NCBI RefSeq assembly: GCF_003977615.1
Contig: NZ_RYZR01000008.1
Location: forward strand, 124,001 to 188,000
Direction: 5' to 3'
Origin: Dyella dinghuensis
GTDB taxonomy: Bacteria > Pseudomonadota > Gammaproteobacteria > Xanthomonadales > Rhodanobacteraceae
DNA length: 64,000 bases
Of this stretch, positions 5,041 to 7,534 are shown piece after piece. A program made the translations under genes and the position numbers. Under the pieces are notes generated by a model. The model saw only the letters and a program-made list of their open reading frames with translations, had not been told where the DNA came from and did not search any database. How positions within the stretch are numbered: the first letter of the stretch is position 1; the number at the start of each line of letters is the position of its first letter.

Positions 5041-5208
5041 CCCTCTCCCCTATGGGGAGAGGGCTGAGGTGAGGGGCCAATGTTGTGCTGCCCGCCATTT
5101 GAAGCGAGCTTTTGCTCTCAACGCTTCTCGCAATGAAAGCGCGCGCTGTAGAAACATTTTCGCAAGCCCGAGCCCCTCACCCCGCCCCTCTCCCCATCGG
5201 GGAGAGGG
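5041..5208. repeat. pair of inverted REP-like hairpins (REPIN-type), CCCTCTCCCC family
   Basis: The first unit, at 5041-5076, is a hairpin of CCCTCTCCCC and GGGGAGAGGG followed by a GGTGAGGGG tail. The second, at 5173-5208, is the same unit inverted (CCCCTCAC tail, then the hairpin). About 96 bases lie between them. This arrangement of two inverted REP units is what has been called a REPIN. It fills the gap between the small membrane protein gene and uvrD. The same family is found inside uvrD at 6666-6770. No REP-associated tyrosine transposase gene is present in the window. Confidence 0.8.
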
Positions 5209-5245: not shown

Positions 5246-7534
5246 ATGGATGTCTCGCACCTGATCGACTCACTCAACGACGCGCAACGCGAAGCGGTCT
5301 GCGCGCCACCCGGCCACTACCTGATTCTTGCGGGCGCAGGCTCCGGCAAGACACGCGTATTGACCCATCGCATCGGCTGGCTCAATCAGGTCGAGCATGT
5401 GCCGCCGTGGGCGATTCTTGCCGTGACCTTCACAAACAAGGCCGCGGGCGAAATGCGCGCGCGCATCGAGCACCTCATTCCCGGCGGTACACAAGGACTG
5501 ACGGTCGGCACCTTCCACGGCATCGCGCATCGTCTGCTACGCAGGCATTGGCGTGAAGCCGGATTGCCAGAAAGTTTCCAGATTCTCGATGCCGACGATC
5601 AGCAACGGCTGGTCAAGCGCGTCATCGCCGGACTCGGCCTGGACGAAGCACGCTTCCCGCCGCGTCAGGCCGCATGGCAGATCAACAGCTGGAAAGACGA
5701 AGGCAAGCGCGCGGAGAACATCGAGCACGGACAACATCCCGTCACGCGCACATTGGTGCAAATCTATCAGGCGTATGAAGACGCATGCCGTCGTGCAGGC
5801 CTGGTCGATTTCGCCGAACTGCTGCTGCGCGCACACGAATTGTGGTTGAAACAGCCGGCCATTCTTGAGCATTACCAGCAACGCTGGCGCTATCTATTGA
5901 TCGACGAATTCCAGGACACCAATTCGTTGCAATACGCGTGGATTCGCGTGCTCGCCGGTCAAACCGGCCAGGTCTTCGTCGTGGGCGACGACGATCAGGC
6001 AATTTACGGCTGGCGTGGTGCGAAGGTCGAGAACGTGCAGCAATTCCTGCGCGATTTCCCTGGCGCGCGAACGATCAAGCTCGAACAGAATTACCGTTCT
6101 ACGTCGAACATTCTCAAAGCCGCCAACAGCGTGATCGAACGCAATGGCAGCCGTCTTGGCAAACAGTTGTGGACGGCCGGCGAGGAAGGCGATCGCATTG
6201 CCGTTTACGCCGCGTATAACGAGCAGGACGAAGCACGATTCGTCATCGAGCGCATTCGCGAATACATCGCCGAACACGGCAACGCGAAAGACTGCGCCAT
6301 TCTCTATCGTTCCAACGCGCAATCGCGCAACTTCGAAGAGCAGTTGATCCAGCACGATGTTCCGTATCGCGTGTATGGCGGCCTGCGCTTCTTCGAGCGC
6401 GCCGAAATCAAGGATGCGCTTGCTTACCTGCGCCTCACCGCGAATCGTCACGACGATGCGGCGTTCGAGCGCGCCGTGAATACGCCGCCACGCGGCATCG
6501 GCGATCGTACGCTGGATGTGTTGCGCCGGCGTGCGCGGCAGGACAGCACGTCAATGTGGGAGGCTGCGCTTGTCGAACTTTCCAGCAGCACGGAATTAGC
6601 AGGGCGCGCGAAGAATGCGGTGAAAAGCTTCCTCGCCATGATTGACGAGATGGCGCGCACTTTTGCCCCCTCTCCCCTCCGGGGAGAGGGCTGGGGTGAG
6701 GGGACAACCTCGCCGGAACTCCTCGCTTCGAACAGCCCCTCACCCAACCCTCTCCCCGAAGGGGAGAGGGCTAGTGCGGCATTGCCACTGGCCGAACAGA
6801 TCGACCACGCCATCGTGCAATCGGGTCTGCGCGATTTTTATGAAAAAGACAGCCGCGGCAATGCCGAATCGCGCGTAGAGAACCTGGACGAACTGGTCAA
6901 CGTCGCGTCCCGCTTCGAATTGACACCCGATGACATCGAAGCAGGTCTGAGCGAACTCTCCGCATTTCTTTCGCACGCAGCACTTGAAGCCGGCGAAGGC
7001 CAGGGCGACTCGTGGGATGACTGCGTGCAGTTGATGACACTGCACTCGGCGAAAGGCCTCGAGTTTCCGCTGGTTTTCCTGGTTGGCGTGGAAGAAGGCT
7101 TGTTCCCGAGCCAGCGTTCCGTCGAAGACGAAGGCCGACTGGAAGAAGAACGCCGCCTCGCCTACGTCGGTATCACGCGTGCACGCGAACGTCTCGTCAT
7201 AACGCACGCCGAATCGCGCCGCATGCACGGCACAGAAATGCTGGCGCGCCCTTCCCGCTTCCTGAGCGAAGTGCCGCCGTCGCTGATCGACGAAGTACGG
7301 CCGCGCGTGCAGGTCAGTCGCCCGCTCTACGCCGGCCGCTTTGCCGAACCGGCGCCGTCGCTGAAAGAAGATTTACCGGTGAGACTTGGACAACGCGTCA
7401 GCCATCCCAAGTTCGGCGAAGGTGTCGTGGTCAGTGCCGAAGGCAGCGGCGCGCATACGCGCTTGCAAGTGAACTTCGAAGGCGAAGGCAGCAAGTGGCT
7501 GGTTGCCGCTTACGCGAACCTCACGCCGCTTTGA
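5246..7534 (+). CDS. uvrD: DNA helicase II, with in-frame repeat insertion
   Basis: A superfamily 1A 3'-5' helicase for nucleotide-excision and mismatch repair. Residues from 1 read LNDAQREAV (Q motif), AGAGSGKT (Walker A), FTNKAAGEMRAR (motif Ia), LLIDEFQDTN (Walker B), VGDDDQAIYGWRGA (motif III), EQNYRST (motif IV), LMTLHSAKGLEFPLVFLVGVEEGLFP (motif V) and RRLAYVGITRARERL (motif VI), with the C-terminal Tudor-like tail GQRVSHPKFGEGVV. The ATG at 5246 matches the family start; upstream in-frame codons run through a repeat. At 762 residues it is longer than the usual 720-740 because residues about 474-509 are encoded by a pair of REP-like hairpins at 6666-6770. The insertion falls in a loop between motifs IV and V, keeps the frame, and would be translated as a Pro/Gly/Glu-rich linker. 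Confidence 0.95.
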   Translation: MDVSHLIDSLNDAQREAVCAPPGHYLILAGAGSGKTRVLTHRIGWLNQVEHVPPWAILAVTFTNKAAGEMRARIEHLIPGGTQGLTVGTFHGIAHRLLRRHWREAGLPESFQILDADDQQRLVKRVIAGLGLDEARFPPRQAAWQINSWKDEGKRAENIEHGQHPVTRTLVQIYQAYEDACRRAGLVDFAELLLRAHELWLKQPAILEHYQQRWRYLLIDEFQDTNSLQYAWIRVLAGQTGQVFVVGDDDQAIYGWRGAKVENVQQFLRDFPGARTIKLEQNYRSTSNILKAANSVIERNGSRLGKQLWTAGEEGDRIAVYAAYNEQDEARFVIERIREYIAEHGNAKDCAILYRSNAQSRNFEEQLIQHDVPYRVYGGLRFFERAEIKDALAYLRLTANRHDDAAFERAVNTPPRGIGDRTLDVLRRRARQDSTSMWEAALVELSSSTELAGRAKNAVKSFLAMIDEMARTFAPSPLRGEGWGEGTTSPELLASNSPSPNPLPEGERASAALPLAEQIDHAIVQSGLRDFYEKDSRGNAESRVENLDELVNVASRFELTPDDIEAGLSELSAFLSHAALEAGEGQGDSWDDCVQLMTLHSAKGLEFPLVFLVGVEEGLFPSQRSVEDEGRLEEERRLAYVGITRARERLVITHAESRRMHGTEMLARPSRFLSEVPPSLIDEVRPRVQVSRPLYAGRFAEPAPSLKEDLPVRLGQRVSHPKFGEGVVVSAEGSGAHTRLQVNFEGEGSKWLVAAYANLTPL
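6666..6770. repeat. REPIN-type repeat pair inside the uvrD coding sequence
   Basis: Unit one, at 6666-6703, is the CCCTCTCCCC/GGGGAGAGGG hairpin followed by CTGGGGTGAGGGG. Unit two, at 6736-6770, is the inverted form. The spacer is about 32 bases. It is the same family as the pair at 5041-5208. The whole element keeps the uvrD frame open and contributes residues such as PSPLRGEGWGEG and PSPNPLPEGER. Confidence 0.9.

Follow-up and report, generated by a model that had tools for sequence, protein, structure and literature searches.

How does a pair of palindromic repeats come to lie, in frame, inside the gene for DNA helicase II? This question is raised by a locus of the soil bacterium Dyella dinghuensis, from which we analyzed a stretch of 64,000 nucleotides (hereafter, the window, to which all coordinates refer). 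uvrD is located at 5246 to 7534 on the plus strand; it starts with the ATG at 5246 and forms a single open reading frame of 762 amino acids with the Pfam UvrD N- and C-terminal domains and a tudor domain, the UvrD match continuing on both sides of the insert, and its product aligns with Escherichia coli UvrD (2is1) from residue 1. Within this frame, the left REP (6666 to 6703, plus strand) consists of a hairpin at 6668 to 6690, CCCTCTCCCC-TCC-GGGGAGAGGG, and the inward tail CTGGGGTGAGGGG, and by eye resembles other copies in the same genome. A spacer (6704 to 6735, plus strand), which is alignable in the copy in ppc and in other near full-length copies, separates it from the right REP, which is inverted (6736 to 6770, minus strand) and consists of the tail CCCCTCACCC and a hairpin at 6748 to 6770, CCCTCTCCCC-GAA-GGGGAGAGGG. 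Both hairpins are perfect palindromes, and the inward tails GGGTGAGGGG and CCCCTCACCC give the inverted REP doublet that defines the REPIN layout. Thus, a preliminary description of the window, which had proposed a REPIN-type pair in frame within uvrD and an insert rich in Pro, Gly, and Glu, was right on both points, the insert being rich in Pro, Gly, Ser, and Glu.

The palindromes span residues ~475 to 509 of the protein and, based on the 2is1 alignment, the insert corresponds to residues ~472 to 477 of E. coli UvrD, which we take to be part of the 2B subdomain; by the same alignment, it presumably follows the GIG region and precedes motif V. Many relatives with a short linker have a UvrD of 731 amino acids, i.e., ~31 residues shorter than the protein in the window. 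In RNA folding predictions, the single hairpins reach −20.8 and −21.2 kcal/mol, and the whole element folds into one long hairpin of −77.5 kcal/mol (z −5.5). uvrD has one doublet of this REP family within the gene and another just before its start codon, the latter at 5041 to 5208 (strand not assigned, pitch 145), directly upstream of the ATG and outside the protein. A longer version of the pattern matched three times in the window (at 5054 and 5173 in the leader doublet and at 6681 in the insert) versus 0.01 expected in shuffled sequences. The possibility that the insert is an assembly artefact, raised in the preliminary description, is ruled out because other genomes of the genus have in-frame inserts at the same place.

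In the genome of D. dinghuensis itself, the pattern finds 50 perfect palindromes and none in the reversed control, and for 35 of the 48 hairpins examined an inverted partner tail lies no more than 220 bases away. Nine of these 48 hairpins lie inside five conserved ORFs, namely, uvrD, a gene for an lhr-type helicase, ppc, hrpA, and lpd, in a count that rests on nine ORFs scanned for protein families, with ORFs touched by a repeat only at the edge mostly left out. The others are without a demonstrated gene, so that the family lies mostly outside genes, as is typical of REPs and REPINs. This agrees with the earlier statement that such repeats are normally found outside genes; the unit also lies in frame in other genes of the same genome (hrpA, ppc, the lhr-type gene, and lpd), a count that the preliminary description had called for. 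By eye, neither a GTAG nor a CGTC tag is common to the 48 copies. Alignable spacers occur not only in uvrD but also in ppc and in copies that are apparently outside genes, the ORFs there being outside the family scan. The genome contains one gene for a Y1 transposase (PF01797), and the 3.3-kb locus around it (L146) contains no perfect palindrome. In all five genes (5/5), the left arm is read in one and the same frame, giving PSPxxGEGxGEG. With in-gene arms included, 39 of 42 arms are open in this frame, 34 in a second frame, and 7 in the third, in line with the earlier proposal that the family can stay open in the frame used. Because two frames are regularly open, the evidence for a frame bias of the in-gene left arms is weak. 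These reading frames are compatible with the idea that the repeat family may act as a source of linker peptides.

We compared 87 uvrD genes, of which 80 were from named contigs, taken as the best 80 among 344 relatives, and seven from a set of 16 genomes of the genus, from which nine uvrD loci had been dropped because contigs of equal length marked them as duplicates of the 80. In this set, a conserved F precedes the insert site and the helix LAEQIDHA follows it. At this site, 43 genes have a short linker (6 to 19 residues, F included), 30 have a REP-class insert (27 by motif count and three relics set by hand), and 14 have arrays of the GGGANNC class. Nine inserts had a motif hit of both kinds, and only L078 (11 and 2) had at least two of each. 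The REP class comprises 25 A/B-like and five D-like inserts, the latter assigned by hand, and takes several forms: type A, as in the window; type B, in which the stem is shifted by one base; chimeras with a left A arm and a right B arm (by eye, L093, L105, and L208); loops with a nested hairpin; the five D-like inserts; and decayed remnants (L047, L025, and L049), among which the long linker has outlasted hairpin decay in L047 and L025. At least two perfect 9-base stems are kept in 21 of the 30 REP-class inserts, which extend over 19 to 70 residues after the F. No insert peptide contains a stop codon, and the frame is kept in all 86 readable genes (in L028, the site is a run of N). P, G, S, and E together account for 59% of the insert peptide in 24 A/B-like rows, for 43% in inserts of the GGGANNC class, for 40% in short native linkers, and for 25% in the flanks; hydrophobic residues make up 14, 17, 12, and 31%, respectively. 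When filled and empty genes are compared in pairs by eye, the native linker appears to be replaced rather than cleanly interrupted. The preliminary description had dealt with this particular repeat pair. Such a loop is absent from 43 of the 87 genes, and the other genes are occupied by several different repeat families; we conclude that what is constant is the site and not one repeat family. Among the surveyed sequences, L028 and L035 (both uvrD of G011) have a run of N exactly at the insert, i.e., an assembly gap at the repeat, and L066, on a MAG contig, has two copies of the C-terminal uvrD motif as a result of a duplication or a misassembly.

The content of the site differs even between close sisters. 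With four states, at least 26 changes are needed on a protein tree of the flanks and at least 23 on a DNA tree; when the labels of the protein tree were shuffled 200 times, the mean was 38.3 and the minimum 33. These counts are minima given each tree, 24 to 28 of the 84 inner branches are weak, and gains and losses are not separable. Five sister pairs with 100% SH-aLRT support in the DNA tree differ in insert type: L078 (D) and L103 (C), L085 (D) and L107 (C), L060 (C) and L069 (short), L065 (REP) and L096 (short), and L063 (REP) and L089 (D). Based on codon alignments, omega of the flanks is 0.034, 0.039, 0.057, 0.084, and 0.203 in the five differing pairs and 0.044 to 0.057 in three insert-free pairs; the flanks are, therefore, under purifying selection. 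In the three rows whose type A arms are intact (L016, L054, and L057), the arms differ by 3 to 8%, the spacers by 24 to 53%, and synonymous sites of the flanks by 40 to 60%. Because the arms vary less than the synonymous sites, either the intact arms arose later than the locus or they have been refreshed from genomic copies. Where the left arm has decayed (L046) or the arms are of type B (L063 and L093), the difference from type A is 11 to 56%.

We also counted repeats in 25 genomes, which were picked by insert type and not at random; the counts allow overlapping matches and include the copies in uvrD. Type A palindromes numbered 7 to 141 in eleven genomes with an A/B insert and 0, 0, 0, 0, 6, and 0 in six genomes with a short linker; type B palindromes, which can overlap type A, numbered 2 to 29 in the same eleven genomes and were absent from the six. 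In seven genomes with a GGGANNC-class uvrD, type A counts were 22, 0, 1, 149, 27, 0, and 0. Among these seven genomes, GGGAWTC occurred 27, 46, and 35 times in G042, G036, and G058, GGGAAC occurred 469 and 47 times in G017 and G077, and G053 and G118 had none of either, the only two GGGA patterns searched. GGGAWTC was also found 27 times in G057, which has an A/B insert, and GGGAAC nine times in G045, which has a short linker; in G055, which has a D-type insert, the counts, which cover the A and B patterns, were one for type A and four for type B. Because these counts are mixed, the agreement between uvrD insert type and the repeat load of the genome is partial: repeat-poor genomes have short linkers, but the class present in uvrD is not simply that of the most abundant repeat.

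Altogether, we consider it probable that a permissive linker in UvrD has repeatedly been colonized or refreshed by palindromic repeats, which are kept if frame and hydrophilic peptide allow. According to this model, the linker joining two helices of the 2B subdomain would be a permissive landing site for REP doublets and GGGANNC inverted arrays, which are spread through many genomes of this bacterial family and whose insertions in most genes would presumably have been purged. An insert surviving at the uvrD linker would be one that keeps the frame and is hydrophilic and probably unstructured; and because the linker would tolerate inserts of this kind, inserts would time and again have arrived, decayed, and been lost, and the emptied site would have been taken by other repeat families. 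Arrival may have occurred by transposition, by template switching between repeats, or by conversion of an existing copy, with a share of conversion suggested by the chimeric arms. We infer that these processes, rather than the import of foreign uvrD alleles, brought in the inserts and that the insert is translated as part of one protein, in which it would be disordered and near neutral in effect. The occupancy by several families, the open frames, the selection on the flanks, the likeness of the arms, the partial agreement with repeat load, and the inserts in other genes all support a colonized linker. The incompleteness of that agreement, the absence of young arms from the decayed and type B rows, the diverged left flanks, the apparent replacement of the native linker, and a search of the genome that identified no mobilizing enzyme argue against it; given the chimeric arms and the alignable spacers, an old insert may also have been converted. 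The locus provides a natural replicated experiment in which mobile palindromes become protein at the same codons, with many turnovers, several families, and empty sisters, and it opens to experiment the question of whether REPs within repair genes are passengers that the cell tolerates or modifiers of repair and mutation rate.

Conversion of an old insert leads to the alternative that a single ancient insertion was inherited vertically, with its arms homogenized by gene conversion from genomic repeats and with many losses. The alignable spacers of the A/B-like inserts, the chimeras L093, L105, and L208, and the relics L047, L025, and L049 all fit such a history. We had considered spacer similarity as proof of vertical descent; however, because alignable, near full-length copies are likewise present in ppc and at places that are apparently intergenic, it does not prove descent at this locus, and we dropped this argument. 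Moreover, GGGANNC and D-like inserts are present in close sisters of other types, and short linkers are found in all 12 rows of the Luteibacter/Pinirhizobacter clade and in 10 of the 13 that belong to the D. japonica clade, making a single ancient insertion unlikely in our view. Alternatively, homologous recombination between the uvrD alleles of different species could have brought the inserts to the site, as might be suspected from the nearly identical insert boundaries in all genes and the apparent replacement of the native linker. Also, over the 150 bases to the left of the insert, some pairs show more divergence than the gene does on average (80, 84, 86, and 87%; for L078 and L103, 80% versus 93% over the whole flanks), which could reflect local exchange. 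Nevertheless, in seven of seven pairs, of which six are sisters in the DNA tree and the seventh, L102/L110, in the protein tree alone, the two 150-base flanks taken together resembled the partner, despite its different content, more closely than the best gene sharing the coarse type (87 versus 85, 92 versus 85, 92 versus 84, 91 versus 87, 89 versus 85, 89 versus 88, and 91 versus 85% identity), with margins of 1 to 8 points, some of which are small. We therefore do not favor interspecies recombination of the uvrD region and regard it as rather improbable.

Two further alternatives assign a function to the insert. It could be a domesticated linker that is under selection and tunes UvrD through 2B rotation, dimerization, or contact with MutL. 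The 2B subdomain is described as a regulatory part in the available portion of PMC13238157, an effect of intragenic REPs on repair is the subject of speculation in that of PMC3733652, and the long linkers of L047 and L025 have persisted beyond their hairpins. Yet, 43 of 87 genes manage with a short linker, the length of REP-class inserts varies from 19 to 70 residues, and in-frame inserts are also present in the metabolic genes ppc and lpd; accordingly, we give selection for a tuned linker little credence. Finally, the hairpins might act in cis on DNA or mRNA by pausing or by an effect on stability, with the peptide as a by-product. The strong predicted fold (−77.5 kcal/mol, z −5.5) and the second doublet just upstream of the uvrD start codon point in this direction, but the hairpin-less relics L047 and L025 retain the in-frame stretch and, because the families at the site differ in sequence, no one structure would be kept across them, as far as can be extrapolated from the folding of the window element; an action in cis is thus very improbable.

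The GGGANNC class, with tandem units of ~7 bases, presumably resembles the short heptanucleotide tandem repeats of bacteria, but here the units form inverted arrays within a coding linker. The Rickettsia palindromic elements (RPE) occur in other hosts, and the likeness to them is one of description; we know of no reuse of one site by several families of RPE. In the accessible part of PMC3733652, RPE are presented as in-frame palindromes in genes that likely encode functional proteins, and in the uvrD orthologues, as far as their sequences indicate, an in-frame element likewise appears to leave a conserved gene intact. REPINs (Bertels and Rainey 2011, PMC3116915), as described in the text available to us, share with the window family the inverted REP doublets with a spacer, the high copy number, and the mostly intergenic location; the window copy differs in lying inside a gene and, as far as the single PF01797 locus indicates, its family has no evident link to a RAYT gene. 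The closest precedent comes from Di Nocera et al. (2013, PMC3733652), where, in the available part, intragenic REPs are reported in genes for DNA synthesis and repair, with the UvrD/REP helicase named, different REPs are reported at about the same recB site in two Xanthomonas, and the effect on repair is already a matter of speculation. These REPs, like ours, are palindromic repeats in frame inside conserved genes; they are tagged with GTAG or CGTC, whereas the window family by eye shows neither tag. Because intragenic REPs, including one in a UvrD/REP helicase gene, are thus published, at least in this part of the source, a single intragenic copy in uvrD is of a known kind. In that part, other such genes are hit at different sites, whereas here one uvrD site is reused across species by several classes and with chimeric arms. 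Among the best-ranked literature matches, we found no report of the recurrent occupation of one uvrD site by several families, so that the way in which different repeat classes reuse this site in many species appears to be new within that literature; the excerpted text of PMC12306157 does not name the genera of these relatives.

Similar insertions recur at a few other places. In hrpA, at least two REP cores were present at one site in 9 of 14 readable loci of the genus (16 fetched), with the motif-based extraction leaving 2 of 16 loci of the genus and 12 of 14 other loci unreadable; by eye, GGGAAC-like repeats occupy the hrpA site in G004 and in L162, from another genus. ppc had in-frame repeats in 4 of 30 loci sampled from 55 genomes with a match, lhr had at least two REP motifs in 10 of 28 readable loci (30 sampled, two unreadable by motif-based extraction), and lpd had the repeat in three of three loci, which were chosen because they matched. 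In uvrD itself, in-frame GGGANNC inverted arrays are present at a second site near residue ~240 in L098, L108, L229, and L232, and a small one in L107, in a survey of 128 sequences that includes some genomes twice and in which 10 of the 41 loci L207 to L247 were unreadable at the main uvrD site. We take this second site to lie between motifs II and III. It is tempting to regard the 2B linker and the second loop of uvrD together with the sites in hrpA, lhr, ppc, and lpd as standing docking sites for successive palindromic families, which would displace one another in frame on the time scale of the bacterial family and continuously rewrite the linkers of core helicases; we advance this wider proposal only tentatively and would not bet on it. 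If it were true, effects on helicase regulation and mutation rate would be possible.

Some individual loci add minor observations. In L164 (hrpA of G008), the left REP arm is tandemly amplified in frame. L245 is long at the second uvrD site with no GGGANNC array there. L290 and L291, two lhr loci lacking REP motifs, have the DLFA peptide that is also seen in repeat-bearing lhr, which may be native or a spacer remnant. L296 (lhr of G003) contains at the lhr site a translated stretch with PAKAE and DSRLRGNDG, which we take to resemble another common proteobacterial repeat.
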